A stretch of 34,594 nt of DNA from Rhizobium sp. (GTDB taxonomy: Bacteria > Pseudomonadota > Gammaproteobacteria > Xanthomonadales > Xanthomonadaceae). Positions 7,106 through 31,871 of the stretch are shown one piece after another. The position numbers and the translations under genes were made by a program. The notes beneath the pieces were generated by a model. That model saw only the letters and a list, made by a program, of their open reading frames with translations, had not been told where the DNA came from and did no database searches. Position 1 is the first letter of the stretch. The number at the start of each line of letters is the position of its first letter. The stretch lies in the NCBI GenBank assembly GCA_019459185.1, contig JAIBEO010000084.1:1-34594 (forward strand), written 5' to 3'.

Positions 7106-8917
7106 TCAGTTCTTGCGGGAAGCGATCCAGCGGTCCACCTTGGCCTCGAGCACCGCCAGCGGCACCGAGCCGTCGCGCAGCACTTCGGCGTGGAAGCCGC
7201 GGATGTCGAAACGGTCGCCCAGCTCGCGTTCGGCGCGGGCGCGCAGTTCCTTGATCTTGAGCTCGCCGATCTTGTAGGCCAGGGCCTGGCCGGCGATGGC
7301 GATGTAGCGCTCGGTTTCGGAAACGGCCTCTGTCTGGCTGGTGGCGGAGTTGGCCAGCATGTATTCGATCACCTGCTCGCGACTCCAGCCCTTGCTGTGA
7401 AGGCCGGTGTCGACCACCAGGCGGATCGCGCGCCAGAGCTCGGCCTGCAGGCGGCCGAAGTACTGGTAGGGGTCGGTGTAGGCGCCCAGCTCTTTACCCA
7501 GCGATTCGGCGTACAGGCCCCAGCCCTCGGCGAAGGCGGTTTCGCCGCCGAAGCGGCGGAACTTCGGCAGTTCGCCCAGCTCCTGCTGCAGCGCCAGCTG
7601 GAAGTGGTGGCCCGGGATGGCCTCGTGCAGGTACAGGCTTTCGCTGTCCCAGCGCTTGCGGGTGGGCAGGTCGTAGGTGTTGACGTAGAAGATGCCCGGG
7701 CGCGTGCCGTCCTCGCTGGGGCGCATGTAGCTGCCGCCGGCGGCCGACTGGGCGCGGAAAGCTTCCACCGGGCGGATCTCGAACGGCGCCTTGGGCGTGA
7801 GCGAGAACAACTCGGGGATGCGCTGGTTGATCTTCGCTTCCAGCGCGCGGTAGGCCACCAGCAATTCATCCTCGCTGCCGAACTGGAATTGCTTGTCCTT
7901 GGTGACGAACTCGAAGAACTGCGCGCGCGTGCCGGCGAAACCCACCTGCTTCATCACCGCGTCCATCTCGCCGTGGATGCGCGCCACCTCTGCCAGGCCG
8001 ATGTCGTGGATCTGCGCCGGGCTCATGTCGGTGGTGGTGGACTGGCGCACGCGGTAGGCGTACCAGGCCTCGCCGTCGGGCAGGGCCGACAGCGAAACCG
8101 TGTCGCGCGCGGCCGGCAGGTATTCGTCGTTCACGAAGCGGCGCAGTTCGCGGTAGGCCGGCATCAGCTGCGTGGCGATCAGTTCGCGGTAGGCGGCGGT
8201 GAGGCGGGTCTTGTCGGCGTCGCTGAAGCCGGCCGGGAATTCGGCCACCGGGCGCCAGAACAGGGTGTCCTCGGGCTTGTCCTTGATGAGCGCGTCGATC
8301 TGCGGGATCACCTTGGCCATCAGCACCTTCGGCTGCACCACGCCGTTGGCCATGCCGGTGCGCATGTTGGCCTGCATGCTGCGCATCAGCGCCGGGAACC
8401 GGCCGGCGCGCTTGAGCCAGTTGTCGTAGTCCTGCACGGTCTTGAACGGCTGCGCGCTCGAACCCGAGCCCAGCTGCGCGAACAGGCCGGTGACGTTGTA
8501 GAACTGGTTCAGCGGCTGCTGCCAGTCGGGGAAACGTTCGCCTTCGATGCTGGCCTCGAGGTCGCGCACGAAGATCTGGTAGCTCAGCAGGTCCTGGCCC
8601 TGCAGGCCGTCGCTGCCGATGGCCTGGGCGCGGCCCAGCCACTCGCGGTTGAAGGTGGCTTCCTTCGAGCGGAACTCCGCGGCGAAGAGGTTCGGCATCT
8701 GGTCGTTGTAGCGCGGGTCGCCGACGAAGGTGGCGTTGAGCGGGTTCAGCGCCAGCGAGGCTTCCCAGTAGTCGGCGTAGAGCTGCGAGAGCTGCGCGGC
8801 GCGTTCGCCGGGCTGCGGGGCGGTGGCAGGCGCGGCCGCGGCGGTGTCAGCGGCGGGCGTGGTGGCGCAGGCCGACAGGGCGAGGGCCAGGGCAAGGGCG
8901 AGCGGGCGCAGGGTCAT
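7106..8917 (-). CDS. DUF885 family lipoprotein, putative metallopeptidase
   Basis: A 603-aa protein of the DUF885 family, believed to be zinc-dependent carboxypeptidase- or dipeptidase-like enzymes. The N-terminus MTLRPLALALALALSACATT gives a lipobox (LSAC, Cys17), so it is a periplasmic lipoprotein. The hallmark HEAIPGHH lies at residues 431-438, and a downstream GETAFAEGWGLYAESLG supplies the conserved glutamate that would complete the metal site. Length is normal for the family. The start is supported by AAGGAA about 8 nt upstream; frames continuing upstream are not needed. It is preceded by the DUF5694 gene (29-nt gap) and followed after 19 nt by the acidic lipoprotein. Substrate specificity cannot be read from sequence. 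Confidence 0.92.
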   Translation of the reverse strand: MTLRPLALALALALSACATTPAADTAAAAPATAPQPGERAAQLSQLYADYWEASLALNPLNATFVGDPRYNDQMPNLFAAEFRSKEATFNREWLGRAQAIGSDGLQGQDLLSYQIFVRDLEASIEGERFPDWQQPLNQFYNVTGLFAQLGSGSSAQPFKTVQDYDNWLKRAGRFPALMRSMQANMRTGMANGVVQPKVLMAKVIPQIDALIKDKPEDTLFWRPVAEFPAGFSDADKTRLTAAYRELIATQLMPAYRELRRFVNDEYLPAARDTVSLSALPDGEAWYAYRVRQSTTTDMSPAQIHDIGLAEVARIHGEMDAVMKQVGFAGTRAQFFEFVTKDKQFQFGSEDELLVAYRALEAKINQRIPELFSLTPKAPFEIRPVEAFRAQSAAGGSYMRPSEDGTRPGIFYVNTYDLPTRKRWDSESLYLHEAIPGHHFQLALQQELGELPKFRRFGGETAFAEGWGLYAESLGKELGAYTDPYQYFGRLQAELWRAIRLVVDTGLHSKGWSREQVIEYMLANSATSQTEAVSETERYIAIAGQALAYKIGELKIKELRARAERELGDRFDIRGFHAEVLRDGSVPLAVLEAKVDRWIASRKN

Positions 8918-8946
8918 GCGGATTCCTTGGGTGTGGAAGAGGGCGG

Positions 8947-10002
8947 TCAGGGCGCGAGCAGCGCCTCGCCGTCGACGACGTCCACCCAGGGCAGGGCCCG
9001 GAGCGACGCCTGGAGGAAGGGGCGGTGGGCGGCACCGATCAGCAGCAGCGTGCGGCCGCCATCCTCGCGCGCCAGTTCGCGGGCGAGCCGGGTCGTGATC
9101 TCGGCGTTGCGTGCGTGCCACAGCATCAGCCGGCGCCGGCCGGCGTCGTGCTTGCCGGCGGTGTTGTCGAACACCGCCCATTCGGCGGCCAGGTCGGCGC
9201 GCGCGTAGTCGTCGGAGTTCATCCAGCGCAGCAGCGCCAGCAGCCCGTCGGGCCGATCTGCGCGCCAGTGTTTCGCCTGTTCGTCGTTCAGCGCTTCCAG
9301 CCCCTGCTGCACGGCGGGCGTGGAGAGGCGCGGCAGCAGTTCATCGGCCAGCGCGCTGACGCCCAGCTCGTCGGCGAACGGGTCCACGGCGCACAGTTCG
9401 CGCTGGCCCAGCTGGCGCGCCAGGCGCAGCGCGATCGAGGCGATCTCGTTGTCGCTGGCGGCCAGGGCGTCGAGTCGCTCCACCGCGATCTGGCCCAGCG
9501 TGGCGGCGGCCGATTCGCGGGTCGCGGGCGACAGCGCGCTCCAGTTCAGCGCGGCCGACCAGGGCTCGTATGCGGCCAGCTGCAGCGAGACCAGGGTCAG
9601 CCGCTGCATTTCGTCGAGCGTGTCCTGGGCCACGAGGCTGCCGGCTTCGATACGGGCCTGCGCGGCCGGGCGCTGGCGCCGCACCTGCTGTTCGCCGGCC
9701 AGGCGAACGGCGTTCATGGCGAAGGTGGAGAGCAGTTCGCCGTAGCGCGCCGGCTCGGCGGCGAAGGCTTCGACCGACTCGCCGGGCACGGCCTCGATGC
9801 AGACGCGGGTGGGCGCGAACCTGGCCAGCCGCTCCACCACCGCCGCCTGCTGCACCGGCGTGGTGGCGGGTTGGAGTTGTGCGAGGTGGGCGCTGCCGAG
9901 CACCAGCACTTCTGCGCCCGAGGCCAGCGCAGGCAGCAGCGCGGCGACCAGCAGCAGCGCGAACCGGCGGTTCAGGGGCAGGGGGCGGCGGGTCGTGACC
10001 AT
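8947..10002 (-). CDS. DUF5694 (TraB/Tiki-related) exported protein
   Basis: A 351-aa protein beginning MVTTRRPLPLNRRFALLLVAALLPALASGAEV in outline: a signal peptide with an ASG-A type cleavage. The mature domain opens with EVLVLGSAHLAQL and closes with TLLLIGAAHRPFLQASL. This pair of strand-GxxH motifs is typical of the TraB/PrgY/Tiki-related superfamily and of DUF5694, and E96-like acidic residues (IEAVPGES) fit the same fold. Such proteins are proposed metalloproteases, but activity is unproven here. The start is placed at this methionine because the 27 codons upstream are outside the signal peptide. The gene leads into the DUF885 lipoprotein gene. Confidence 0.82.
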   Translation of the reverse strand: MVTTRRPLPLNRRFALLLVAALLPALASGAEVLVLGSAHLAQLQPATTPVQQAAVVERLARFAPTRVCIEAVPGESVEAFAAEPARYGELLSTFAMNAVRLAGEQQVRRQRPAAQARIEAGSLVAQDTLDEMQRLTLVSLQLAAYEPWSAALNWSALSPATRESAAATLGQIAVERLDALAASDNEIASIALRLARQLGQRELCAVDPFADELGVSALADELLPRLSTPAVQQGLEALNDEQAKHWRADRPDGLLALLRWMNSDDYARADLAAEWAVFDNTAGKHDAGRRRLMLWHARNAEITTRLARELAREDGGRTLLLIGAAHRPFLQASLRALPWVDVVDGEALLAP

Positions 10003-10089
10003 GGCAGGGCTCGGGACGGGGTGCAGGGAACTCACCCCCCAGTGTGGCGCAGCCGGTGCGTACTGGCCCGGGCTGGAAGTCACGCCGGC

Positions 10090-10854
10090 TCAGCCCCGGG
10101 CGGCGGCGGCGCGCAGCTGGGCGGCCTGGTCGCGGCCCAGCCAGGCGGTGATGCCGCGCCGCACCAGGTAGAGCAGGGGGATCAGGGCGACGGCGCAGGC
10201 CATCTTGTAGGCGTAGTTCATGGTGCCCACCACCAGGAACAGCGAGGTGGGCCACTGCTGCGGCCCCAGCACGAAGGCGATGTAGAGCACGATGAAGCTG
10301 TCCACCAGCTGCGACACCGCCGTGGAGCCGGTGGCGCGCAGCCACACCATCCGTTCGCCGGTGGCGTGGCGGATGCGGTGGAACACGCTCACGTCGATCA
10401 GCTGGCCGATGAGGAAGGCCACCAGCGAGCCGCCGATGGTCCACAGGCCCTGGCCGAACACGGCGCCGAACGCGGCCTGGTAGTCGGGTACGCCTTGCTC
10501 CGCGGCCACGCCCACCCACCACGAGGCCGGCGCCAGGCCGATGGCCACGTAGGCGAACACGAAGCCGTAGACGATCACCGCCACCGCCAGCCAGCTGATG
10601 AAGCGCACGCCGCGCTTGCCGAAGAATTCGTTGACGACGTCGGTCATCACGAACACGATCGGCCAGAGCAGGGTGCCTGCCGTGAAGTTCAGCGAGCCGC
10701 TCTGCCCGAACAGGTTCCACTCGAAGGGACGCAGGCCCAGGGTGTCCTCGAGCGCGAAGATCTTGACGCCGATGAACTCGGCCAGCAGCGCGTTGCTGAC
10801 GAAGAACACCGCCAGCACCAGGAACAGGCGGTTGGCGCGTTCGGCGCTGGTCAC
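10090..10854 (-). CDS. yhhQ: Queuosine precursor transporter YhhQ
   Basis: Inner-membrane importer of 7-cyano/aminomethyl-7-deazaguanine, the precursor used for queuosine in tRNA (VUT/DUF165 family), 254 aa. It has about six transmembrane helices, and the family core FVMTDVVNEFFGKRG and QLIDVSVFHRIRHATGE are clear, followed by GSTAVSQLVDSFIVLYIAF. The start is GTG, overlapping the stop of the DUF502 gene by 4 nt (10851-10854), which suggests coupled translation. No queuosine biosynthesis genes lie nearby. The polar, charged residues inside the helices are those expected of this transporter family. The family call is secure, the substrate is by homology. Confidence 0.92.
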   Translation of the reverse strand: MTSAERANRLFLVLAVFFVSNALLAEFIGVKIFALEDTLGLRPFEWNLFGQSGSLNFTAGTLLWPIVFVMTDVVNEFFGKRGVRFISWLAVAVIVYGFVFAYVAIGLAPASWWVGVAAEQGVPDYQAAFGAVFGQGLWTIGGSLVAFLIGQLIDVSVFHRIRHATGERMVWLRATGSTAVSQLVDSFIVLYIAFVLGPQQWPTSLFLVVGTMNYAYKMACAVALIPLLYLVRRGITAWLGRDQAAQLRAAAARG

Positions 10855-11501
10855 GCGGCCGGCCCGGGGCGCTCGAAGGGGATGGTGTCGGGGCTGACCG
10901 CGCCGCCGGAGATGATGAAGGACATCGCCTCGTCCACGCTCCAGTCGGTGGGCGTCAGGCGGTCCACCGGCACCACTTCCAGGTAACCCGAGGTGGGGTT
11001 GGGCGTGGTGGGCACGTACACCGCCGCCAGCTCGCGGCCGGTGCCCTGCTCGCGCATCACCCGGGTGACGAAGCCCACGCACTTCATCTCGCGGTGCGGG
11101 AAATCGATGAGCACCACGCGCTGGGTGCCGTCGGGCTTGGTCTGCAGCAGGTCGAGCAGCTTGCGGGCGCTGCCGTAGACCGTCTTCATGAGAGGGATGC
11201 GGGCGATCAGCGCCTCGAACCAGGCCAGCATGCGCTGGCCGATGACGCGCCGCGCCAGCGCGCCCACCGCCACGATCACGAACACGGTGGCCACCACGGC
11301 GAACGTGGACTGTGCCCAGGGGTCGTCCATCCAGCCCAGCCATTCCGGGTGGGCAGCGGCCAGGCGACCCGACAGCGGCGCCACCAGCGGCTGGCTCATG
11401 TCGGAGAGCAGCACCAGCACGAACTTGAACACGATCCAGACCAGCCAGATCGGCAGCAGGGTCAGCAGGCCGGTGAGGAAATAGGCACGAAGTCGTCGCA
11501 T
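10851..11501 (-). CDS. DUF502 family membrane protein
   Basis: A 216-aa inner-membrane protein of the DUF502 family, whose role is unestablished though plant relatives (COV/LCV) act in vascular patterning. Two transmembrane segments are evident: LTGLLTLLPIWLVWIVF near the N-terminus and TFAVVATVFVIVAVGALA around residue 70. The soluble domain follows with the family motifs RIPLMKTVYGSARKLLDLL, VVLIDFPHREMKCVGFVTR, and YVPTTPNPTSGYL. It overlaps yhhQ (GTGA), so the two are probably one transcript. The upstream kinase gene ends 36 nt away. No strong Shine-Dalgarno is visible before its ATG. Confidence 0.92.
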   Translation of the reverse strand: MRRLRAYFLTGLLTLLPIWLVWIVFKFVLVLLSDMSQPLVAPLSGRLAAAHPEWLGWMDDPWAQSTFAVVATVFVIVAVGALARRVIGQRMLAWFEALIARIPLMKTVYGSARKLLDLLQTKPDGTQRVVLIDFPHREMKCVGFVTRVMREQGTGRELAAVYVPTTPNPTSGYLEVVPVDRLTPTDWSVDEAMSFIISGGAVSPDTIPFERPGPAA

Positions 11502-11537
11502 GCGGGGCAGTGTAGGGCAGGCCGCGTCGCGGCGGGG

Positions 11538-13850
11538 TCAGCGCTTGCCCAGCTCCCCGGCGGGCACGCTGCGCACGAGGCGGAAGCCGATGTCGTCGAA
11601 GCCGGTGCCGGCGTCGAAGTCATTGCTCTGCGTCGGGTTGGCGCGATTGGCGCCGTCGCGCCAGCCCACGCCGGCGGCCAGGCGGCGCTGGCAGCCGCGG
11701 GTGCAGTCGCTCACCCATTCGCGGGCGTTGCCGCGGGTGCCGGCCAGGCCGATCGGGCTCAGCGGGCCCTGGGCGGCGTTCACCGTGCCCTCGACGCCGG
11801 CGCAGCCGATGCGGCCGTCCTGGCAGGCGTTGCCGCTGCCGCGGTAGTCGGCCAGCGGGCGCCATTCGGCCAGGGTGGGCAGGCGGTAGTCCTTGCCGCT
11901 GCGGCGGCTGAGCCACTGCGCGTAGGCCTGGGCATCGTCGTAGCTCACGCAGAGCACCGGGTGGTTGCCGCTCTGGTTGAAGCCCGGGTCGTCCCAGGTG
12001 CGCTTCTTGATGCTGATGGGCGCCAGGCGGTTGCGGCAGCGCGCGGCCGGTCGGCCGGTGGCGCTGGCGAAGGCGGCGTACTCGGCGCGGGTGACTTCGT
12101 TGCGCATGGCGGCCAGGCCGGCGCGGCTGCCTCGCGGCGTGCGCGCCAGCACCATGGCCACCGCGGTGTCGGCCAGCGGTTCGCCCGCCTTGGGCAGGGC
12201 GACGGCCTTCGACCAGGCTGGCTCCAGGCTGGCCGGCGGCACCGCCAGCGCGGTGGCCAGGGCCTTGGTGGCCTCCACGGCGTCGGCGTCGAGCTCGGCC
12301 AGGTTGGCTTCCAGCCGCGCCAGCAGCAGCGGCGGCAGCGCGGTGGTGAGCTCGCGCCAGGGCTTGCCTTCCAGGCGGTCCATCTCGGCGGCGAAGGGCG
12401 CGGCCTTTTCGTGGTTCTGGCGGGCCTCGTCGTCGTTGCCGGCGCGCACGGCTTCCAGCACGCGGGTGCTGTAGAAACCGATCACTTCGTCGGACAGGCG
12501 GAACAGCGCCGGCTCGCGCGGCGCGAGCTGGCGCGCGCGGCGCAGCGAATCCATGGCGTTGTCGCCGGGCGGCAGGCTCAGGCGCTGGCGGTCGATCTGG
12601 CGGCGGGCGGCGGCCAGTTCGCGGGCGCCCGGGAGGGTGGGGTCGTAGTCGAGCGTGAACACCGTGACTTCGGCCTTGGCCTGGGCGAACGGCGTGGGGC
12701 CGGCGGGCGCAACCGCGGGTTCCGGCGCGGCGTCGGGCGTGGCGGGCGCGGCTTCCGGCATGGCGGTTTCGGCGGCGACCACGGGCGCGGCTTCCGCCGG
12801 TGCGGGTTCGGCGGCCGGGGCGGCGTCCTCGACGGTGAAGAAATCGCTTTCCGGGGCTTCGGGCGGACCCGGGTCGCGCATCAGCCAGACGATGGCGGCA
12901 CCGGCCAGCACCGCGCCCGAAACCGTGGCCAGCACCGGCTTCCACCAGCGTCCGGCGAAGGCCTTGAGCTTGCCCGGGTCCACCAGCGGCGCGGACGGCT
13001 TGCCTTCGGCCAGCTGGTTGAGCGCGCCCAGCATCTGCTGCGCGTTGCGGTAGCGGTTGTCCGGCGACTTGGCCATCGCCCGGTCGATGAAGGGCTGCCA
13101 GTGTTTCTTGTCGACTGGCAGGCGCGGCACCGGGTCCTGGGCATGCATCAGCGCCAGCGCCAGCGGGTCGGCGGCCTGGAAGGGCAGCTTGCCGGTGAGC
13201 AGTTCGAAGGCCAGCACGCCGACGCTGTAGAGGTCGGCGCGGCCGTCCACCACTTCGCCGCGGGCCTGTTCCGGCGCCATGTAGCCGCCGCTGCCGACGG
13301 CCAGGCCGGCGGTGGTGATGCGGGTGGCGTCGCGTTTGCTCAGCGCGATGCCGAAGTCGGTGAGCAGCGGCCGGTCGGCGTTGTCGAACAGCACGTTCTC
13401 GGCCTTCACGTCGCGGTGCACGATGCCGCGGGCGTGAGCGTATTCGAGCGCCGAGAGCAGCGAGCGCAGCACTTCGATGGCGCGCGGCTCGTCGTGGGTG
13501 AAGTCGCGCTGGCCCAGGTGGCCCTTGGCCAGGTAGGGCAGCACGTAATACAGCAGGCCCTGGCGCGTGCGTCCGACCTCGTGGATGCCGACGATGCACG
13601 GGTGCTCGAGCTTGGCGATGGTGCGCGCCTCGTGCTCGAAGCGCTGCTTGGAGATTTCGTCGGTCAGCGCGGTGGGCGACATGACCTTGATTGCCACCTG
13701 CCGGTCCAGCGATTCCTGCACGCCCAGGTAGACCTGGGACATGCCGCCCTTGCCGATGCGGCGCAGCACCCGGTAGCCCGGGATCTCCGGCATGTAGCTG
13801 GAGAGCAGCGCAGTCAGCTCGTCAGGGGAAAGGTCTTCTTCCTGCTGCAT
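11538..13850 (-). CDS. Transmembrane Ser/Thr kinase with FGE-like domain
   Basis: A 770-aa Hanks-type receptor kinase. The cytoplasmic kinase domain (about residues 26-280) is complete: glycine loop GKGGMSQVYLG, Lys55 in VAIKVM, helix-C Glu74, catalytic HRDVKAEN (Asp147), DFG at 165-167 and APE at 192-194. One transmembrane helix (about 304-324) leads into an Ala/Pro-rich linker, a helical region and a C-terminal formylglycine-generating-enzyme/sulfatase-modifying-like domain (about 575-770), placed outside the membrane. In that domain the two catalytic cysteines expected after the GSW-like segment (here GVGWRDG, from residue 727) are missing, so it is probably a binding or sensor domain. The start is chosen at MQQEEDL; an ATG 14 codons upstream (13892) is an alternative, but it would fall in a likely -10 box. 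Confidence 0.93.
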   Translation of the reverse strand: MQQEEDLSPDELTALLSSYMPEIPGYRVLRRIGKGGMSQVYLGVQESLDRQVAIKVMSPTALTDEISKQRFEHEARTIAKLEHPCIVGIHEVGRTRQGLLYYVLPYLAKGHLGQRDFTHDEPRAIEVLRSLLSALEYAHARGIVHRDVKAENVLFDNADRPLLTDFGIALSKRDATRITTAGLAVGSGGYMAPEQARGEVVDGRADLYSVGVLAFELLTGKLPFQAADPLALALMHAQDPVPRLPVDKKHWQPFIDRAMAKSPDNRYRNAQQMLGALNQLAEGKPSAPLVDPGKLKAFAGRWWKPVLATVSGAVLAGAAIVWLMRDPGPPEAPESDFFTVEDAAPAAEPAPAEAAPVVAAETAMPEAAPATPDAAPEPAVAPAGPTPFAQAKAEVTVFTLDYDPTLPGARELAAARRQIDRQRLSLPPGDNAMDSLRRARQLAPREPALFRLSDEVIGFYSTRVLEAVRAGNDDEARQNHEKAAPFAAEMDRLEGKPWRELTTALPPLLLARLEANLAELDADAVEATKALATALAVPPASLEPAWSKAVALPKAGEPLADTAVAMVLARTPRGSRAGLAAMRNEVTRAEYAAFASATGRPAARCRNRLAPISIKKRTWDDPGFNQSGNHPVLCVSYDDAQAYAQWLSRRSGKDYRLPTLAEWRPLADYRGSGNACQDGRIGCAGVEGTVNAAQGPLSPIGLAGTRGNAREWVSDCTRGCQRRLAAGVGWRDGANRANPTQSNDFDAGTGFDDIGFRLVRSVPAGELGKR

Positions 13851-13887
13851 GGCGCGGGCGGGGCTGGGCGGGGGGACGGGGCTGTCC

Positions 13888-13915
13888 AGCATACGGCAGC
13901 CGCCCGTTCAGGCAA
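13888..13915 (-). promoter_or_regulatory. Putative sigma70 promoter of the kinase gene
   Basis: On the minus strand TTGCCT (13910-13915) and TATGCT (13888-13893) are separated by 16 nt. They resemble -35 and -10 boxes at near-ideal spacing. The transcript would start about 13880 and give a leader of about 30 nt before the ATG at 13850. This box lies over the alternative upstream ATG of the kinase frame, which favours the shorter protein. Matches are suggestive only. Confidence 0.35.
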
Positions 13916-13963
13916 GCCATTTGTGAAAACGTGAACGGCGTCACGGTTCCCGCCGGCCGGGAC

Positions 13964-14422
13964 TCAGGCGTCCGGTTTGGGGCGTTTGCGGCGCACGTAA
14001 ACCTGCTTGCGCACCCGGGCCACTACGTGGCCTTCGCCGTCGCGCACTTCGGTGTCGAACCAGTGCAGCACTTTCGAGCCGTCTTCGGCGGCGGCCCGCA
14101 GCGCCTCCACCACGGCTTCGGGCAGGTCGAACTCGGCCACCACGGTGCCGCGGCCGGGCTTCTCGAACTTCACTTCGCCGGCCTGGTCCCACACCAGGTA
14201 ACCCGGGCCGAGCCGGCGCATGACCAGGATCATCCAGAACGGATCGGTCATGGCGAACAGGCTGCCGCCGAAGTGCGTGCCCACGTAGTTGCGGTTGTAC
14301 CAGCGCTGGCGAAGCTCCACCCGCGCATGGCTGAAGTCGTCGGCCAGGCGGGTGACGCGGATGCCGGCGAACAGGAAGGGCGGCCAGACGTTGAACAGCA
14401 GCCGCAGGCGGGAAGCTTTCAT
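13964..14422 (-). CDS. DUF4442 hotdog-fold thioesterase-like protein
   Basis: A 152-aa protein of the DUF4442/YiiD C-terminal type, a hotdog-fold family related to PaaI acyl-CoA thioesterases. Typical landmarks are the N-terminal WPPFLFAGIRV, RQRWYNRNYVGTHFGGSLFAMTDPFW (hotdog helix with a conserved Asn and His), the LVWDQAGEVKFEKPG strand, and a basic C-terminus VYVRRKRPKPDA. No signal peptide. Acyl-CoA substrates are plausible but unproved, and family members often lack demonstrated activity. It lies between cnoX upstream (10 nt away) and the kinase gene downstream, so it may share the cnoX transcript. Confidence 0.86.
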   Translation of the reverse strand: MKASRLRLLFNVWPPFLFAGIRVTRLADDFSHARVELRQRWYNRNYVGTHFGGSLFAMTDPFWMILVMRRLGPGYLVWDQAGEVKFEKPGRGTVVAEFDLPEAVVEALRAAAEDGSKVLHWFDTEVRDGEGHVVARVRKQVYVRRKRPKPDA

Positions 14423-14432
14423 GGGCGTGGGC

Positions 14433-15296
14433 TCAGAACAGCAGCGACGCCATCTTGCGCCGGTAGGTGCCCACCAGGTCCTCGTCTTCGACCACGCGGA
14501 AGGCGTCGATCAGCGCCTTGCGCGGCAGGCCTTCGGCGTAGTTGCGGTCGCGGCGAAGCATTTCCAGGAACTGTTCCAGGCCGTCCTGCCAGCGGCCGGC
14601 GACGATGTCGGCGGCGCCCAGCAGGTGGCGGGCGCGCAGATCGGCGGGGTCGGCGGCCAGGGCCTGGCGCAGTACTTCGGCCGGCGGTGCGTCCTTGAGC
14701 AGGGCCAGGAAGGCCAGGCGGGCGCGGCCGCGCAGGGCGCGGTCGTCCTGGGCCAGGTTGGCCGGCAGGGCGTCGAGCAAGGTCTCGGCTTCGGCCACGG
14801 TGCCGGTGCGCAAGAGCGCCAGCGACAGGTCGAGCTTCAGCTCGTCCTTGTCCGGTTCGGCCAGCACGGCGGCGCGCAGGCGCACTACTTCTTCGTGCGG
14901 GTCGGTGGGCGCGGCGGCCTCGGGTTCGGCCGGGGCCTCGGCTTCCTTCGCGGTGATGCCGTGGTGGGCCAGGAACTGGCGCAGCTGGCCCTCGGGCAGG
15001 GCGCCCGGGAAACCGTCGACGATCTGGCCGTCCTTCACCAGCATCACCGTCGGCACCGACTTGATCTGGAAGTAGCCGGCGAGCTGCTGCTCCTTGTCCA
15101 CGTCCACCTTGGCCAGCAGAAAGCCGCCGTTGAATTCGGCGGCCAGTTTTTCCAGCACCGGCCCCAGGGTCTTGCAGGGGCCGCACCAGGTGGCCCAGAA
15201 GTCCACCAGCACCGGGATTTCCTTGGACTTGAGCAATACGTCGACCTCGAATTTCTCGAGGCCGGCGTCGAAAACGTGGGGATTGGCGGGGGTCAT
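14433..15296 (-). CDS. cnoX: Chaperedoxin CnoX (thioredoxin + TPR, YbbN)
   Basis: A 287-aa cytoplasmic co-chaperone that protects oxidised clients and passes them to GroEL or DnaK (by homology to CnoX/YbbN, 284 aa in E. coli). Residues 20-115 are a thioredoxin fold with the active site WCGPC (Cys38 and Cys41) and the cis-proline region SVPTVMLV. Residues about 130-287 form TPR-like helices ending in LRRDRNYAEGLPRKALIDAF and VGTYRRKMASLLF. E. coli CnoX has lost the CXXC and thioredoxin activity; this protein keeps both cysteines, as the Caulobacter protein does, so it may be a true reductase. The thioesterase-like gene follows 10 nt later. Confidence 0.92.
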   Translation of the reverse strand: MTPANPHVFDAGLEKFEVDVLLKSKEIPVLVDFWATWCGPCKTLGPVLEKLAAEFNGGFLLAKVDVDKEQQLAGYFQIKSVPTVMLVKDGQIVDGFPGALPEGQLRQFLAHHGITAKEAEAPAEPEAAAPTDPHEEVVRLRAAVLAEPDKDELKLDLSLALLRTGTVAEAETLLDALPANLAQDDRALRGRARLAFLALLKDAPPAEVLRQALAADPADLRARHLLGAADIVAGRWQDGLEQFLEMLRRDRNYAEGLPRKALIDAFRVVEDEDLVGTYRRKMASLLF

Positions 15297-15363
15297 GGCG
15301 GGTCCGTCCGGAAAGGCATCACCCGCAGATGGTGCCAGCAGCGGCCGGACTCAAGCCAATGCT

Positions 15364-16118
15364 TCAGTCGGCTTCACGTCGCTGGAAGGCCCACAGCCCG
15401 GCCAGGCCCGCCACCAGCGCGCCGGCCACGCTGTAGCCGACCACGGCCATCGGGTCGGCCTTGGACATGGCCTGCACCGGCAGTGACCACGGGAACCAGG
15501 GGCCGAAGCGCGCCGACTGCCCGATGAGGAAACCCATCACCGTGGCGCCCATGCCCACGCCCACGGCCACGGTGAAGCTGCGCCAGCGCACGGCGATGAA
15601 GGTGTGAAGCGCCACCAGCAGCAGGCTGGCCGCGGTGACCAGGACCAGTTTTTCCAGCAGCAGGGCCCAAGGCACCGGCCCGGCGATGCCGAACCCGGGC
15701 CTCAGCAGCGCCAGCAACCAGCCACCGAGCGGCAGCAGCGCCAGCATGGCCAGCTGCGCCAGCGCCAGCACCCCGGCCAGGGCCAGCAGCTTGGCCAGGT
15801 AGTGCACGGCGCGCGGGACCGGCAGCGCCAGCAGGTGTTTCCATTGCTGGTTGGCGTGTTCCTGGCCGGCCAGCAGCGCGGCCTGCAGGGTCACGAACAG
15901 CGGCACCATCAGGAAGGCCCACAGCGCCAGCGTCGACTGCGCGAACGCCAGCCAGGCCTCGGCGGGTGCCGGGGGCGGCCGGTCGGCCGGCAGGCGCACC
16001 ACGGTCATCTGCAACACGTAGACGGCCACCACGACCGCGGGGGCCACCACGCACAGCCACAGCGCCAGCGTGCCGCGAAGCTTCAGCCATTCCGCCGACA
16101 GGGCCCGGGCCAGCGCGC

Positions 16119-16122
<4 letters not shown>
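15364..16122 (-). CDS. ABC-2 type transporter permease
   Basis: A 252-aa inner-membrane permease with about six transmembrane helices and the N-terminal cytoplasmic lead ALSAEWLKLRGTLALWL, typical of ABC-2 permeases in BcrB/LanE-like exporters. It has a large polar loop after helix 2 (LAGQEHANQQWKHLLALPVPR, containing the family motif E-x-x-x-x-x-W) that would dock on the ATPase. Its start overlaps the ATPase stop by 4 nt (ATGA), so the two should be coupled subunits of one transporter. No second permease gene is present, implying a homodimer. The exported substrate is unknown. Confidence 0.9.
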
Positions 16123-17036
<914 letters not shown>

Positions 17037-17042
17037 GGCTCA

Positions 17043-17091
17043 GGCGGGGAGGGGCGATGGCCGCAGCTTGACGCCGCGGCCGCGCCCCGCC
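17043..17091. other. GC-rich hairpin in the gap between amidohydrolase and ABC genes
   Basis: GGCGGGG (17043-17049) pairs with CCCCGCC (17085-17091) and inside it GGCCGC (17059-17064) pairs with GCGGCC (17076-17081). A smaller hairpin GGGTTG/CAACCC lies at 17101-17114. The 96-nt gap (17037-17132) follows the stop of the amidohydrolase gene and precedes the ATPase start, so these may slow transcription between them, but there is no T-run on the minus strand, so a canonical terminator is not supported. No other element is seen in this gap. Confidence 0.3.
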
Positions 17092-17132
17092 ATGTGCCAA
17101 GGGTTGCCCAACCCCCGTCACGCGCCGGCGGC

Positions 17133-21145
<4,013 letters not shown>

Positions 21146-21149
21146 TCGG

Positions 21150-21641
21150 ATGCGTCGTCTGCTAGTTGTGCTGTGCGTCGTCGCGCTTTTCGCGGGCTGT
21201 GGCTTCAAGCCGCGCGCCCAGCTGGCGCTCGCTTCCGACCTGGGCCCGGTGGCGGTGAGCACCGCCGACCCCTACAGCCCGCTGGGCCAGGGCCTGGCCA
21301 CCGCGCTGCGCCGCGCCGGCGTGGCCGAAGCGGTCGCCGGCCAGCCTTCGGCCACGCTGCAGGTGGTTTCCGAAAACATGCGCACCCGCCCGCTGGCCGT
21401 GGACGCCGCCGCCCAGGTGCGCGAATACGAAACCATCTACACGGTCGAGTTCGAGCTGCGCGGCGCCGACGGCGCGGTGCGGGTGCCGCGCCAGGCCGTG
21501 GAACTGTCGCGCGAATACACCTACGACGCGCTGGCCTCCGCCGGCAGCCCGGCCGAGCAGCAGCTGCTGCAGGACGAACTGCGCCGCGACATGCAGGCCG
21601 CCATCCTGCGCCGCGTCGACGCCGCCCTGCGCGCCGACTGA
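21150..21641 (+). CDS. lptE: LPS-assembly lipoprotein LptE
   Basis: Outer-membrane lipoprotein that plugs LptD and completes LPS translocation to the cell surface, 163 aa. The lipobox FAGC (Cys17 of MRRLLVVLCVVALFAGCGFK) follows a short signal sequence. Downstream GFKPRAQLAL, the Ser/Thr-rich TLQVVSENM and EYETIYTVEFEL strands, and the C-terminal helix LLQDELRRDMQAAILRRVDAAL agree with the family, which is poorly conserved. Identification rests largely on position between leuS and holA, as in E. coli. The stop TGA shares one base with the ATG of holA (TGATG). Confidence 0.93.
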   Translation: MRRLLVVLCVVALFAGCGFKPRAQLALASDLGPVAVSTADPYSPLGQGLATALRRAGVAEAVAGQPSATLQVVSENMRTRPLAVDAAAQVREYETIYTVEFELRGADGAVRVPRQAVELSREYTYDALASAGSPAEQQLLQDELRRDMQAAILRRVDAALRAD

Positions 21642-24993: not shown

Positions 24994-26478
24994 GTGTCCG
25001 AGGAAATCCTGATCAACGTCACCCCGCGCGAGACCCGCGTGGCGGTGGTCGAGAACGGCATGCTGCAGGAGCTGCACATCGAACGCACCTCGCGCCGCGG
25101 CGTGGTGGGCAACATCTACAAGGGCCGGGTGCAGCGGGTGATGCCCGGCATGCAGGCCGCCTTCGTCGAGATCGGGCTCGAGCGCGCCGCCTTCCTGCAT
25201 GCCTCCGACATCATCAAGGTGCCGGCCGCGCAGTCCGAGGCCGAGCCCGACCCCGCCGCCGTGCCCGCGCCGACCCCGGCCATCAGTTCGCTGGTGCACG
25301 AAGGCCAGGAAATCGTGGTGCAGGTGGTCAAGGACCCGATCGGCAGCAAGGGCGCCCGGCTCACCACGCAGATCTCCATTCCCTCGCGCTACCTGGTGTT
25401 CCTGCCGCACTCGCGTGTACTCGGCGTGTCGGCGCGCATCGAGGACGAGGGCGAGCGCGCGCGCCTGAAGGCCATCATGGCCGAGCTGGCCAACGGTAGC
25501 GGCCAGGGTTACATCGTGCGCACCAATGCCGAGGGCCAGCCCGCCGAGGCCCTGGCCGAGGACGTGGCCTACCTGCGCCGGGCCTGGGACGTGGTGCGCG
25601 AGGCCAGCGCCAGCCGCAAGGTCGGCCAGCGCATCTACGAAGACCTGGCGCTGCCCATGCGCGCCGTGCGCGACCTGATGCGCAAGAACGTCGACTCGGT
25701 GAAGGTGGATTCGCGCGAGGCGCACGAGCGCCTGAGCACCTTCGCGCGCCAGTTCATGCCGGCGCTGGCCTCGCGCATCGAGCACTATTCCGGCGAGCGG
25801 CCCATCTTCGACCTCTACGGCGTCGAGGACGAGATCCAGCGCGCGCTGCAGAAGGAGGTGCCGCTCAAGTCGGGCGGCTACCTGGTGATCGACCAGACCG
25901 AGGCCATGGCCACGATCGACGTCAACACCGGCTCCTTCCTGGGCCAGCGCAACCTCGAGGAAACGGTGTACCGAACCAACCTCGAGGCCGCGCAGGCGGT
26001 GGCGCGCCAGCTGCGCCTGCGCAACCTGGGCGGCATCATCATCATCGACTTCATCGACATGACCGACGACGAGCACAAGCGCCAAGTGCTGCGCACGCTC
26101 GAGAAGGGCCTGGCGCACGACCACGCCCGCACGTCCTTCCATGAGTTCTCGCCGCTGGGCCTGGTGGAGATGACCCGCAAGCGCACCACCGACAGCCTCG
26201 AGCGCCAGCTCTGCGAACCCTGCCACGAGTGCAACGGCCGCGGCACGCTCAAGACCGCCGAAACCCTGACCTACGAGATCTTCCGCGAGATCACCCGCGC
26301 CGTGCGCCAGTTCGAGGCCCAGCAGCTGCTGGTGATCGCCTCGCCCAAGGTCGTCAACAAGATCACCGAGGAGGAATCGGCGGCCGTGGCCGAGCTCGAG
26401 GAATTCCTGGGCAAGTCCATCCGCTTCCAGGCCGACGAGCAGTACGCGCAGGAGCAGTACGACGTGGTCCTGCTGTAA
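24994..26478 (+). CDS. rng: Ribonuclease G
   Basis: Endoribonuclease that matures the 5' end of 16S rRNA and decays some mRNAs, 494 aa (489 in E. coli). It has an N-terminal S1 RNA-binding domain (about residues 35-130). Catalytic Mg-binding aspartates lie in TIDVNTG (Asp309) and DFIDM (Asp352), the same 43-residue spacing as in RNase E. A zinc-link CxxC (Cys407/Cys410 of CEPCHEC) follows. There is no long disordered C-terminal tail, which separates it from RNase E. Start is GTG preceded by GAGGGGGC. yhdP begins 6 nt after the stop. Confidence 0.97.
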   Translation: MSEEILINVTPRETRVAVVENGMLQELHIERTSRRGVVGNIYKGRVQRVMPGMQAAFVEIGLERAAFLHASDIIKVPAAQSEAEPDPAAVPAPTPAISSLVHEGQEIVVQVVKDPIGSKGARLTTQISIPSRYLVFLPHSRVLGVSARIEDEGERARLKAIMAELANGSGQGYIVRTNAEGQPAEALAEDVAYLRRAWDVVREASASRKVGQRIYEDLALPMRAVRDLMRKNVDSVKVDSREAHERLSTFARQFMPALASRIEHYSGERPIFDLYGVEDEIQRALQKEVPLKSGGYLVIDQTEAMATIDVNTGSFLGQRNLEETVYRTNLEAAQAVARQLRLRNLGGIIIIDFIDMTDDEHKRQVLRTLEKGLAHDHARTSFHEFSPLGLVEMTRKRTTDSLERQLCEPCHECNGRGTLKTAETLTYEIFREITRAVRQFEAQQLLVIASPKVVNKITEEESAAVAELEEFLGKSIRFQADEQYAQEQYDVVLL

Positions 26479-26484
26479 GCCCGC

Positions 26485-29400
26485 ATGACCACCGCCCTGC
26501 GCCGCCGGATCCGCCACACCCGCCGCCTGCTGGGGTATGGCTTCCTCGTCGTGCTGATCCTGCTGGCCACCGCGGTGGGCGCGCTCAACCAGCTGCTGCC
26601 GCTGGTCGAGCGCAACCCGGCGAAGGTGGCCGGTTGGCTGTCGCAGCGCATCGGCCAGCCGGTGGCCTTCGACGGCGCACGCGGCGAATGGACCCGGCGC
26701 GGCCCGCGCTTCACGCTCGAGGGCCTGAGCGTCGGCGCCGGCGAGCGCCGGCTCGATATCGGCCGCGCCGAGCTGCTGGTGGCGGTGTATTCGGGCCTGC
26801 TGCCCGGCGAACCGCTGACGGAACTGAAGGTGCGCGACCTGGCCCTGGTGCTCGAGCAGGGCGAAGACCGGCGCTGGCGCCTGGCCGGCCTGCCGTTCGA
26901 ACCCAAGCCCGGCGTGGACCCGCTCGACACGCTCGAGGCGCTGGGCGAGCTGCAGGTGGAGCGCGCGCGGCTGGAAGTGCGTTCGCCCAACTTCAAGGTG
27001 CCGCTGGAGCTGCCGCGCGTGGACCTGCGCCTGCGCGTCAGCGGTGGCCACGTGCTGGCCGGCGTGCGCGCCTGGGCCGAACCGGCCGGGCAACCCATGA
27101 GCGCGGTGGCCGACCTGCGCCGCGGCGACTGGTCGGGCAAGCTCTGGGCCGGCGGCAAGCGCCTTGACCTCGGGCAGTGGTCGCGCCTGCTGGCCGACAC
27201 CGGCCTGGTGGTGGCGGGCGCCGCGGAAGTGGATATGTGGGCGCGCATCGAAGCGCAGCGCATCATGGACGTGCGCACCCGCGCCGAATTCGCGCCGCTG
27301 GCCCTGGGCGCTCGCCGGCCCTGGCTGCCGGACGCCGACGGCGAACCCACGTCGCCACCGGTGGCCTACGAGCGCGTGAACCTGCTGGCGCGCTGGCAGG
27401 CCGGGGAAAGTGGCTGGCAGTTGCACGCTCCTGAACTGCATTTCCACGAACCGGGCAGGGTCGAGCCGCGCAATTTCGACGGCCTGTGGCTCGCCGGCGG
27501 CGAACGTTTCGCGCTGCAGGCGCCGCGCCTGGACCTGGTGCCGGCGCGGCAGCTCGCCAGCCTCAGCGAGCGCGTGCCCGAAGGCCTGCGCCAATGGCTG
27601 CACCGCGCCGCGCCCGACGGCGAGTTGCGCGACGTGCGGGTCGGCGGTCGCGAGGGCGACTGGTCGGGCTCGCTGCGTTTCCACGATGTCGGCTGGCAGC
27701 CCTACGAAACCCGCCCGGGCCTGCAGGGCCTCGACGGCAGCGCGGCCTTCGACCAGCGCGGCGGCGTGTTGCAACTCGAACCCTCGCCGGCGGCGTTCCA
27801 GTGGCCGGGGCGTTTCCGCGCGCCGCTGGACCTGCGCCTGGACGGTCTGCTGGGCTGGTGGCGCGAGGGCGGGCAGTGGAGCCTCGGTGCCAGCCGGCTG
27901 CGCGTGCGCGGCCAGGACTTCGGCACCAGCGTGCGCGCCGAACTGCAGTTCCATGGCGACGGCAGCAAGCCGCGGCTCGACCTGGCCGCCGCACTCGATC
28001 CGACCACCGTGGTCGCGGCGCGCAAGTTCTGGATCGAAGGCAAGATGCCGCCGGCGACGATCAAGTGGCTGGACGAGGCGCTGCTGGAAGGCGCGGTGCT
28101 GGACGGCCGCGTGGTTTTCGCCGGCGACCTCGACGACTGGCCCTTCCGCGAGGGCGAGGGCCGTTTCGACGCCCACACCCGCGTGGCCGGCGCGCGCGTG
28201 CGCTTCAACCCGGCCTGGCCCGACGCCGAGAACATGAACCTCGACGTCGGCTTCGACGGCCCCGGCATGACGCTCGAAGGCACGGGCGAAATCGCCGGCA
28301 ACCCGGTCGAGCGCGTGGCCGGCGACATCGCCAGTTTCAAGGACCCGCGCCTGCGCCTGGACATCGTTTCGCCCACCCGCGGCGAACCGCTGCAGGCGCT
28401 GATGCTGGCCAGCCCGCTGCGCGAGAAATACGAAACGCACCTGCGTGCCGCCAGCGTGGCGGGTGACGCGCGCGTGGAAGTGCAGCTCGACCTTCCGCTG
28501 GCCGCGCGCCTGGGCGGACGCCGCATCGAGGGCACGCTGGCGCTGTCGAATGCGCGCCTGGCCGATCCGCGCTGGGACATCCTGTTCACCGACGTCCAGG
28601 GCCTGACGCGCTTCAGCGACGGCGGTTTCTACACCGAAGACCTACAGGTGCAGTTCGAAGGCCAGCCGGCGGTGTTCAACCTGGTCGTCGGCAGCGACAC
28701 CGACGACCCGGCCCTGGCTGCGCGCGCCAGCCTGCAGGGCGAATTCCCGGCCGAATCGCTGCTGGCCCGGCACGAGCCGCTGGCCTGGCTGCGCCCCTAC
28801 CTGCAGGGCCGCGGCCGCTGGGACATCCAGGTGGACGTGCCGGCGACGGCCCCCGGCCAGCCCGCGCCGGCCTCGCGCCTGCGGGTGGAAAGCGACCTGG
28901 CCGGCGTGGCCATCACGCTGCCGGCGCCACTGGCCAAACCCGCCGAAGTGGGCCTGCCGCTGCGCCTGGACGCGCCGCTGCCGGTGGCCGGCGGCGAAGT
29001 GCAGGTTCGGCTGGGCGAATTGCTGCGCCTGCGCGGCCGCGCGGGCGAAGACGGCAGCATGACCGGCGTGATCCGCATGGGCGAAGGCGGCAACCTGGCG
29101 ATGCCGGAGCAGGGCCTGGTGGTGCGCGGCCGCAGTGCCACGCTCGATGCCGCCGGCTGGGTGGGCTTCGCCGCGGGCGGCGAGGGCACCGGCGGCCTGC
29201 GCGAAGTGGACCTGCAGGTGGATTCGCTCGACCTGCTGGGCTCGCCCTTCGCCGATACCCGCGTGCGCCTGCTGCGCGAACCGGCGCGCACCCGAGTCGA
29301 CCTGGCCGGCCCGGCCGTGGCGGGTGAAATCCTGGTACCCGCCGAACTGGCACAGGGCGTGGTGGGCCGCTTCGCGCGCCTGCACTGGCCCGAGCGCGAA

Positions 29401-30369
29401 ACGCCGGCGACCGCCGAGGCGTTTCCCGTCGACGACACGCTGGCCACCGCCGGCGAGGCGCTGGCGAACATGCCGCCGCCGCCCGAACCTCAAGCACCGG
29501 AGGAAGAAGGCCAGGATCCGCGCAAGCTACCGCCGCTCGACTTCACCGTGGACGACCTGCGGATGGGCGCACTGGCGCTGGGCAAGGCCGAGTTGAAGGC
29601 GCGGCCGGCTTCCGAGGGCCTGCGCGTCGAGCGTTTCGCCACCCGCGCGCCGAGTTTCGAACTCACCGCCGCCGGCGACTGGATTCGCACTTCGGCCGGG
29701 CGCTCGCGTTCGCAGTTCGAGGTGGATTTTTCCGCCGGTGCGCTGGGCGACCTGCTCGGCGCATTCGGGCTGTCGGGCATGGTCGAGGGCGGCCGCACCA
29801 AGGGCCGGCTGGACGGTTACTGGTCCGGGTCGCCGGGCGAGTTCGCGCTGGCGCGCTTCAACGGCCGCTTCAAGGTCGAGGTGGGCGAGGGTGCGCTGCT
29901 GGAAGTCGAGCCGGGTGGCGGCGGGCGCGTGCTGGGCCTGATTTCGCTGGCCGAAATCCCGCGCCGGCTGACCCTGGATTTCAAGGATTTCTTCGCCAAG
30001 GGTTTCGGCTTCAACACCATGGGTGGCGAATTCGTGTTCGCCAACGGCCAGGCCAGCACCGACCTGCTGCAGATCAACGGCCCGGCCGCGGAGATCCGCG
30101 TCAGCGGTTCCACCGACCTGCGCCGCCAGCGTTACGACCAGCGCATCGAAGTGCTGCCCAAGGCCGGCGGCGTGCTGCCCGCCATCGGCGCGATCGCCGG
30201 TGGCCCGGTGGGCGCGGCGGTGGGCGCGGTGGCGCAGGCGGTGCTGCAGCAGCCGCTGAAGCAGGCCGCGCGCACGGTCTACCGCGTCACGGGGCCCTGG
30301 GCAGAGCCCGAGGTGGAGGTGATCGAACGCGGCCCGCCGCCGGTGGACAATCCCCCGCGCCAGCCTTGA
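26485..30369 (+). CDS. yhdP: YhdP family AsmA-like envelope protein
   Basis: Giant inner-membrane-anchored envelope protein of the AsmA/TamB/YhdP class, implicated in moving phospholipids to the outer membrane and in outer-membrane integrity, 1294 aa (E. coli 1266). One N-terminal transmembrane helix (about residues 16-37, GYGFLVVLILLATAVGALN) is followed by the DUF3971 and AsmA-type repeats. These have the usual hydrophobic groove pattern of short amphipathic strands, and the conserved C-terminal block is near VVEVDFSAGALGDLLGAFGLSG-like sequence. A Pro/Glu-rich linker (PPPPEPQAPEEEGQDP) sits near residue 1000. Co-directional after rng and before tldD (59-nt gap), as in E. coli. Confidence 0.96.
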   Translation: MTTALRRRIRHTRRLLGYGFLVVLILLATAVGALNQLLPLVERNPAKVAGWLSQRIGQPVAFDGARGEWTRRGPRFTLEGLSVGAGERRLDIGRAELLVAVYSGLLPGEPLTELKVRDLALVLEQGEDRRWRLAGLPFEPKPGVDPLDTLEALGELQVERARLEVRSPNFKVPLELPRVDLRLRVSGGHVLAGVRAWAEPAGQPMSAVADLRRGDWSGKLWAGGKRLDLGQWSRLLADTGLVVAGAAEVDMWARIEAQRIMDVRTRAEFAPLALGARRPWLPDADGEPTSPPVAYERVNLLARWQAGESGWQLHAPELHFHEPGRVEPRNFDGLWLAGGERFALQAPRLDLVPARQLASLSERVPEGLRQWLHRAAPDGELRDVRVGGREGDWSGSLRFHDVGWQPYETRPGLQGLDGSAAFDQRGGVLQLEPSPAAFQWPGRFRAPLDLRLDGLLGWWREGGQWSLGASRLRVRGQDFGTSVRAELQFHGDGSKPRLDLAAALDPTTVVAARKFWIEGKMPPATIKWLDEALLEGAVLDGRVVFAGDLDDWPFREGEGRFDAHTRVAGARVRFNPAWPDAENMNLDVGFDGPGMTLEGTGEIAGNPVERVAGDIASFKDPRLRLDIVSPTRGEPLQALMLASPLREKYETHLRAASVAGDARVEVQLDLPLAARLGGRRIEGTLALSNARLADPRWDILFTDVQGLTRFSDGGFYTEDLQVQFEGQPAVFNLVVGSDTDDPALAARASLQGEFPAESLLARHEPLAWLRPYLQGRGRWDIQVDVPATAPGQPAPASRLRVESDLAGVAITLPAPLAKPAEVGLPLRLDAPLPVAGGEVQVRLGELLRLRGRAGEDGSMTGVIRMGEGGNLAMPEQGLVVRGRSATLDAAGWVGFAAGGEGTGGLREVDLQVDSLDLLGSPFADTRVRLLREPARTRVDLAGPAVAGEILVPAELAQGVVGRFARLHWPERETPATAEAFPVDDTLATAGEALANMPPPPEPQAPEEEGQDPRKLPPLDFTVDDLRMGALALGKAELKARPASEGLRVERFATRAPSFELTAAGDWIRTSAGRSRSQFEVDFSAGALGDLLGAFGLSGMVEGGRTKGRLDGYWSGSPGEFALARFNGRFKVEVGEGALLEVEPGGGGRVLGLISLAEIPRRLTLDFKDFFAKGFGFNTMGGEFVFANGQASTDLLQINGPAAEIRVSGSTDLRRQRYDQRIEVLPKAGGVLPAIGAIAGGPVGAAVGAVAQAVLQQPLKQAARTVYRVTGPWAEPEVEVIERGPPPVDNPPRQP

Positions 30370-30428
30370 AGCAGGCGGCATCGGGCCGCATCTGACAAGC
30401 TATCCCCTTCCCGTATCGGCACCCCCGG

Positions 30429-31871
30429 ATGACCCAGACCCTGACCCTGGCGCAGTCGCGCCTGCTCGCCCCCGCCGGCCTTGGCCTGGAGGTGCTTGAC
30501 CAGGCCTTCGGGCGCCTGATGGGCCCGGGCGTGGACTTCGGCGACCTGTATTTCCAGCACAGCCGGCGCGAGAGCTGGATGGTCGAGGACGGCATCGTCA
30601 AGGACGGCTCGCACGCGATCGAGCAGGGCGTGGGCGTGCGCGCGGTCAGCGGAGAGAAGACCGGTTTCGCCTATTCCGACGACATCCGCGCCGAGGCGCT
30701 GCTGGAATCGGCCGCCGCCGCGCGCGCCATCAGCCGCGACGGCCACCAGCACCGCGCCGGCCAGCGCATCGTGGTGCCGGGCCGCGAGCTGTACGCGCCG
30801 CTCGACCCGATCGAAGGCCTGGGCGCCGACGAGAAAATCAGCGCCCTGCGCGCCGTGGACCAGTGGCTGCGCGAGGCCGACCCGCGCGTGAAGCAGGTGG
30901 TCGTGAGCCTCTCGGGCGGCGTCGACACCGTGCTGATCGCGCGCAGCGACGGCGTGCTGGCTTCGGACGTGCGGCCGCTGGTGCGCTTCAACGTGCAGGT
31001 GATCGTCGAGCAGGACGGCCGCCGCGAGCAGGGTTATGCCGGCGCCGGCGGCCGCTATTCGTACGAAGAACTGTTTTCCGGCGGCCGTCCGCAGGCCGTG
31101 GCGCGCGAGGCCCTGCGCCAGGCGCTGGTGAACCTGGAAGCGGTGGACGCGCCGGCCGGCACGCTGCCGGTGGTGCTGGGCCCGGGCTGGCCCGGCGTGC
31201 TGCTGCACGAAGCCGTGGGCCACGGCCTGGAAGGCGACTTCAACCGCAAGGGCACCTCGGTGTACGCCGGCCGCATCGGCGAGCGCGTGGCGGCGCCGGG
31301 CGTGACCATCGTCGACGACGGCACCCTGGCCGGCCGCCGCGGTTCGCTCAACGTCGACGACGAGGGCACGCCGACGCAGTGCACCACGCTCATCGAGGAC
31401 GGCATCCTGCGCGGCTACCTGCAGGACACGCTCAACGCCCGCCTGATGGGCATGGCGCCCACCGGCAACGGCCGCCGCGAGAGCTTCGCGCAGCTGACCA
31501 TGCCGCGCATGACCAATACCTACATGCTGGCCGGCAACTACGACCCGGGCGAAATCATCGCCTCGGTGAAGAAGGGCCTGTACGCGCCGAACTTCGGCGG
31601 CGGCCAGGTGGACATCACCAGCGGCAAGTTCGTGTTCTCGGCCTCCGAGGCCTACCTGATCGAGGACGGGAAGATCACCCGCCCAGTGAAGGGCGCCACG
31701 CTCATCGGCAACGGCCCGGAAACCATGACCCGCGTCTCGATGGTCGGCCGCGACCTGGCGCTGGACGATGGCGTGGGCATCTGCGGCAAGGACGGCCAGT
31801 CCGTCCCGGTCGGCGTCGGCCAGCCCACCCTCAAGATCGACGCCATGACCATCGGCGGCACGCGGGCGTGA
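30429..31871 (+). CDS. tldD: Metalloprotease TldD
   Basis: Zinc metalloprotease subunit of the TldD/TldE heterodimer, which degrades unfolded peptides and matures leader peptides of modified natural products, 480 aa (481 in E. coli). The HEXXXH motif is HEAVGH (His260, Glu261, His265), followed by [10 protein letters not shown]. The C-terminal Cys452 in GICGKDGQS is the expected third metal ligand. The TldE partner (pmbA) is 707 nt downstream, beyond darP on the opposite strand. Its 59-nt leader after yhdP shows no strong Shine-Dalgarno; CCCCCGG precedes the ATG. The palindromic repeat copy 2 lies right after the stop. Confidence 0.97.

Follow-up and report, generated by a model that had tools for sequence, protein, structure and literature searches.

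Fusions of a Ser/Thr kinase to an FGE-type domain have been in print since 2005 (PMC1262709). The chlamydial kinase Pkn1, which carries a C-terminal FGE-type domain of the NirV/DUF323 kind, is described in these terms (PMC1262709, PMC3581485) and has been predicted to be cytoplasmic (PMC5177608). In cyanobacteria, Ser/Thr kinases are reported fused to a C-terminal C-type-lectin-like (C-lectin) domain, often diversified by retroelements, and relief of autoinhibition by a ligand has been proposed for them (PMC7517822). A receptor kinase with a regulatory periplasmic part, PknS, has been described from Xanthomonas citri; this part is made up of TPRs, and the kinase has a sigma factor and a type VI secretion system (T6SS) as its working partners. 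According to the same account, no phosphorylation is seen with full-length PknS unless there is a cue, whereas it is seen with forms lacking the periplasmic part, which cannot complement (PMC13147305).

The same fold is found in TvpA, Mtd, and PorK, whose structurally aligned chains have no kinase domain. TvpA and Mtd are retroelement-variable proteins, and FGE-type C-lectin folds are reported to bind ligands in Mtd and, as the authors infer, in TvpA (PMC5006420). PorK is structural and is described as a repurposed FGE fold (PMC12421860). PvdO, finally, is a stand-alone periplasmic protein of pyoverdine maturation, likewise without a kinase.

Here we describe a kinase-FGE fusion encoded in an Arenimonas assembly (GCA_019459185.1), on the minus strand of a 34,594-nucleotide stretch of contig JAIBEO010000084.1 that is referred to below as the window. 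Like Pkn1, the protein combines a Ser/Thr kinase with a C-terminal FGE-type domain, but a hydrophobic segment, a linker, and a stalk lie between the two. It shares a kinase and a C-lectin-like domain with the cyanobacterial proteins, although its own genome has no match to the reverse transcriptase family PF00078, which was found in 3 of 14 control genomes; there is thus no sign of a diversifying retroelement, and a retroelement-diversified receptor (a DGR variable protein) was rejected. With PknS, which comes from the same order, it has in common the probable layout of a receptor kinase, but no sign of a sigma factor was found among the 30 window ORFs scanned, nor of a T6SS in a search of its genome with one family.

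The gene occupies positions 11538..13892 and encodes 784 amino acids from ATG to stop. The initial annotation had ended it at 13850, which is a second in-frame ATG (Met15 of the full frame); by eye, no obvious Shine-Dalgarno sequence precedes either ATG. The putatively cytoplasmic Ser/Thr kinase domain (aa 40-286, 13035..13775, PF00069 E = 1.6e-40) retains every motif that had been called intact, namely the glycine loop (GKGGMSQVY at residue 47), the VAIK lysine (motif at 66), HRD-x-K-x2-N (HRDVKAEN at 159), DFG (179), and APE (206), and by family match and motif set together it is a Hanks-type Ser/Thr kinase. It is followed by a single hydrophobic segment, read from the sequence and presumed to span the membrane (aa 316-337, 12882..12947), a poorly conserved Pro/Ala-rich linker (aa 338-400, 12693..12881), a stalk that AlphaFold2 predicts as helices with pLDDT mostly >90 (aa 401-590, 12123..12692), and an FGE-type (C-type-lectin-like) domain (aa 594-774, 11571..12113, PF03781 E = 9.5e-23, over the cut-off). 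Within the stalk, Leu438, Pro441, and Asn445 are invariant among 33 aligned sequences. This arrangement agrees with the receptor kinase that had been proposed at first and would place the N-terminus inside the cell and the C-terminus in the periplasm.

All 17 Arenimonas rows have a kinase domain of 84-100% identity (at least 95% in 10 of them), which together with the open frame rules out a pseudogene. Identity in the linker is 25-54% in 16 of the 17, the exception being A. malthae with 78%, and across orthologues the FGE-type domain varies faster than the kinase domain. The nearest named records over the FGE part are UBA12134 (99%) and A. malthae (98%), among the 80 of 137 relatives retained from a search with the window's own peptides. 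The orthologue of Arenimonas daejeonensis (NZ_CP042453.1, L038:4273-6594) is split over several frames, through either real decay or sequencing indels. A plus-strand ORF overlying the gene (11094-13934) was taken as a high-G+C shadow. Scanning 10600-15500 returned no promoter-like site (0.1 in shuffles) and one terminator-like site on the other strand (2.6 in shuffles), results that say little in such G+C-rich DNA.

An AlphaFold2 model of the ectodomain (aa 398-784, 33 input sequences) reached a mean pLDDT of 89.4 and a pTM of 0.73. It was compared by VIA-align with Foldseek's best 1000 PDB chains, with Z values taken from the 50 entries listed. Among the matches listed, the strongest were PvdO (5hha; Z 23.4, 206 residues aligned, rmsd 2.8, 27% identity), CalU17 (22.7), and CarF (21.9), followed by FGEs (20.2-21.8), TvpA (21.0), and human pFGE (20.5), and at lower values by four PorK entries (14.7-19.3), EgtB types (14.9-17.3), and Mtd (14.1-14.6). 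Sequence match and predicted fold together place the domain among the FGE-type C-lectin folds of family PF03781. By profile, too, the closest relative with a solved structure is PvdO (E = 1.2e-29), and in that alignment it has cysteines at the places of residues 648, 730, and 734 and a further one a few residues off the place of 619. The protein nevertheless scores only 42.9 bits against the NCBIfam PvdO equivalog model NF051459, whose cut-off is 500.

Two further FGE-type proteins were observed in the same genome. One (L001, G000:C188:57679-61302) has a lipoprotein-like signal by eye. Its PF03781 match is divided between two frames (59179-59802 and 58980-59150), which means that the reading frame is broken or mis-assembled; some 11 kb from it there are matches to a kinase and to FHA. 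The other (L002, G000:C99:16116-19802) stands alone and, by eye, adjoins apparent genes for nitrite reductase and a cbb3 oxidase, as in the NirV arrangement. In Lysobacter concretionis (NZ_AVPS01000004.1; L085, L041), too, the contig of the kinase orthologue encodes another FGE-type protein about 14 kb away, with 28% identity over the domain.

At the place of the FGE catalytic cysteines, the protein reads GVGWRDGANRA (aa 741-751, 11640..11672). The letters GVGWRDG and the absence of cysteines there are as the initial annotation gave them; the motif with which it compared them, GSW-C-x4-C, is one residue short before the first cysteine. Among 117 domain-matching ORFs in the fetched loci, 13 carry GGS[FYWH]LC-x4-C and represent catalytic-type relatives (a different search pattern matched 8). 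A simple offset puts Asp746 and Ala751 at the two catalytic places, while alignment with the 13 catalytic-type rows gives a three-residue gap for the first and Ala748 for the second; by neither route does a cysteine of GGS-x-x-C-x4-C appear, and a catalytic FGE is ruled out. Nor does a catalytic pair lie elsewhere in the fold, and the protein has no cysteine after residue 734. In that wording, the proposal that the cysteines had been lost is not supported. None of the 44 rows compared has a cysteine at either place, and there is accordingly no indication that they were lost recently at the kinase locus. Since L158 and L159, which represent two further families of the order, lack them too, and the same three-residue gap recurs in three non-catalytic, non-orthologous rows (L047, L059, and L062), the domain was most likely inherited already without its catalytic cysteines.

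The whole protein has seven cysteines, one in the kinase domain (Cys99) and exactly six, where about six had been counted before, in the outer part. Their distribution among 34 aligned orthologous domains suggests three pairs. Cys619 (12036..12038) and its inferred partner Cys648 (11949..11951) occur together in all 34 rows, in a surrounding where Trp633, Pro636, and Gln640 are invariant as well. Cys690 (11823..11825) and Cys697 (11802..11804) are both present in 23 rows and both absent from 11, and Cys730 (11703..11705) and Cys734 (11691..11693) are both present in 30 and both absent from 4. The number of cysteines per domain is accordingly always six (20 rows), four (13 rows), or two (1 row), with no half pair in 102 instances (three pairs in 34 domains). 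Because cysteines are gained and lost strictly pairwise in 34 of 34 rows, the outer domain very probably contains three disulfides, as had been proposed, on evidence that is strong but circumstantial; conservation in orthologues holds in the same sense, the rows with fewer than six missing whole pairs only. The window, L035, and L036 are near-copies within this alignment, and L035 and L038 are partial frames. It omits the fragments L020 and L021, two copies from family f11 with no DUF502 gene alongside (L032, itself with six cysteines, and L034), and second copies, drawn from another collection, of genes already represented (L033, equal to L159; L023 and L024, equal to L040 and L038; likewise L003, L005, L006, L009, and L011).

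From the 11 rows without Cys690/Cys697, which come from Lysobacter and its kin, about 35 residues are missing, the GN-x-x-EW loop and this pair among them. In the kinase tree these rows group as a single clade with good support (99/100), and the loss is therefore best counted as a single event. Their kinase domains are still 61-68% identical to that of the window, and 10 of the 11 retain two cysteine pairs, with one pair left in L028. The third pair was lost in L017, L018, and L022, for which the kinase-domain tree implies three changes, of which well-supported branches force only one, and again separately in L028. A model of a trimmed copy from Lysobacter arvi is weaker (pLDDT 78.8, pTM 0.47) and matches CalU17, PvdO, CarF, pFGE, and FGEs at Z 13.7-15.1 and TvpA at 13.1 (rmsd 3.4-4.4), and all 18 members of its alignment, 7 of them untrimmed, match PF03781 at E ≤0.01. 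In human FGE, calcium is bound by an Asn and an Asp of the first loop and by the GN-x-x-E motif. If the calcium sites are as in human FGE, the first would be shortened in Arenimonas copies and both would be lost in the Lysobacter-side copies.

All six cysteines are present in L158 (family f3) and L159 (family f12), two copies in which the loop enclosed by the second pair is longer and whose long branches meet in the kinase-domain tree. Since these copies, each from a different family within the order, have the full set, the outer cysteines are an old structural set. The cysteine pattern can therefore not be read, as it was initially, as a mark of repurposing for a new kind of sensing.

From the kinase motifs, the predicted fold, the missing catalytic cysteines, the paired cysteines, and a conserved gene block we infer a Hanks-type receptor kinase that was passed on by vertical inheritance in the Lysobacterales. 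In it, a single membrane span, a flexible linker rich in Pro and Ala, and a helical stalk would connect a cytoplasmic kinase with an FGE-type domain in the periplasm that is inactive as an FGE and stabilized by as many as three disulfides. This domain would recognize a ligand or a partner protein, recognition would set the pairing and autophosphorylation of the kinase, and the active kinase would then phosphorylate its targets. We give a probability of roughly 0.65 to the central proposition, that the FGE-type domain recognizes a periplasmic ligand or partner and controls the kinase. Sensing of a ligand in particular is plausible by analogy with the ligand-binding C-lectin folds and the kinases described above. 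The absence of about 35 residues from 11 copies in which the kinase is kept is easier to reconcile with a scaffold than with an enzyme common to all copies, although the erosion of the Lysobacter-side domain could equally mean relaxed constraint.

Alternatively, the FGE-type domain might serve for docking only, anchoring the kinase to a periplasmic or envelope complex as PorK does in the type IX secretion ring and sensing nothing. The PorK structures among the matches listed, together with the account of PorK as a repurposed FGE fold, lend this some appeal, and the invariant loop with Cys619, Trp633, Pro636, Gln640, and Cys648 could be a contact surface. The secretion system of which PorK is a part, however, comes from another phylum, and no conserved gene for a periplasmic partner was identified in the block. 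Docking alone is an unlikely explanation, if the chief rival to the favoured one.

The kinase gene lies in a conserved order of genes for a thioredoxin-TPR protein, a DUF4442 protein, the kinase, a DUF502 protein, and VUT. In the window, the thioredoxin-TPR gene (14433..15296, PF00085 E = 7.7e-27 and PF14561 E = 2.4e-25) and the DUF4442 gene (13964..14422, PF14539 E = 6.6e-21) lie upstream of the kinase in conserved synteny, and the gene for the DUF502 membrane protein (10851..11501, PF04367 E = 5.3e-29) begins 36 nt after it, all on the minus strand. The kinase match is followed by DUF502 in 31 of 38 loci, several of the 38 being duplicates of a gene present in both collections; the other loci are L020 and L021 (in both of which the contig ends in the kinase), L030, L031, L032, L034, and L085. 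In L158 the kinase, DUF502, and a VUT-like ORF stand together with, by reading, a DUF4442-like ORF upstream, and in L159 the kinase adjoins DUF502. A strong kinase orthologue, in some cases split over contigs or frames, occurs in 20 of the 26 other Arenimonas genomes. The remaining six (G001, G006, G007, G014, G015, and G024; 1.5-2.2 Mb) have only a weak match, three of them (G007, G015, and G024) being only 74-85% complete. In the rest of the family, 6 of 10 genomes match the kinase at E = 1.4e-106 or better, and G027, G030, G032, and G036 have no strong match. The block is kept in much of one family. The kinase is dispensable, a strong match being missing from 6 of the 26 other Arenimonas genomes and from 4 of the 10 sampled in the rest of the family. 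Elsewhere in the window, the plus strand at 24994-33936 carries ordinary housekeeping genes for the envelope and RNA, encoding RNase E/G, YhdP, and a pair of PmbA/TldD peptidases.

The recurrent adjacency of the kinase and DUF502 genes, also in families f3 and f12, raises the possibility that the kinase and DUF502 act in one pathway, with DUF502 as a substrate or partner and a candidate by position; this would be compatible with a sensing receptor kinase. DUF502, however, is present in all 26 other Arenimonas genomes, including the six where the kinase is missing, and is in this respect independent of it, and the conservation of the whole block means that adjacency may reflect mere shared transcription or inertia. 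We regard the pathway as a doubtful, position-based suggestion. Bolder, and in our view improbable, is the idea of an order-old envelope-sensing operon in which the disulfide-braced dead-FGE kinase would report on the periplasm and act on DUF502, its sensor having been trimmed stepwise, first in the loop between the second cysteine pair and then by some 35 residues of the core, and the kinase left intact. No such operon was found in the literature searched, nor, in titles and the starts of abstracts, a bacterial function of DUF502.

It is quite improbable that the domain has kept an enzymatic activity of the PvdO type, on which the kinase would report or which it would control. The case for such an enzyme is that PvdO is the nearest relative of known structure and that the final oxidation of pyoverdine is reported to depend on it; the same source describes purified PvdO as inactive and with no detectable cofactor (PMC6206403). 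The low equivalog score, the loss of the segment with the GN-x-x-EW loop from 11 of 34 orthologues, and a domain more variable than the kinase all speak against an enzyme, and the families found in the block include no biosynthetic cluster. Our literature search returned no paper linking PvdO with formylglycine.

A kinase of the PknS/ECF43 type switching on a sigma factor and a T6SS is very improbable despite the same order and general layout as PknS, given that PknS has periplasmic TPRs (PMC13147305), that no sigma-factor family occurs among the 30 window ORFs scanned, and that the genome has no match to PF05591, the one type VI secretion family searched. The neighbours on both sides belong to families other than the ECF sigma factors whose genes would be expected beside an ECF43-linked kinase (PknS, PknT), and a type VI secretion kinase (PpkA) was rejected along with an ECF43 kinase. 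The statement that no phosphatase or FHA gene lies nearby holds for the same 30 ORFs, of which 13 match no family and some are surely not genes; around the kinase (7109-21262), 9 of 10 ORFs match one. Elsewhere in the genome there are five FHA matches and a single PP2C_2 match (C256, G000:C256:5815-7959), which lies beside another kinase and whose product could serve the window kinase in trans.

The literature search, among the matches listed from open-licence papers, returned no description of a periplasmic kinase-FGE form. The fusion type itself is already known, and the age of both the fold reuse and the cysteines reduces the novelty initially read into them. The favoured receptor kinase would represent an example, passed on by vertical inheritance, in which a membrane kinase has been fitted with a reused FGE fold, placed beside DUF502 in most of the loci examined, and its natural variants without one or two cysteine pairs allow direct comparison. 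In other respects, it extends the known range of bacterial receptor kinases in an ordinary way.
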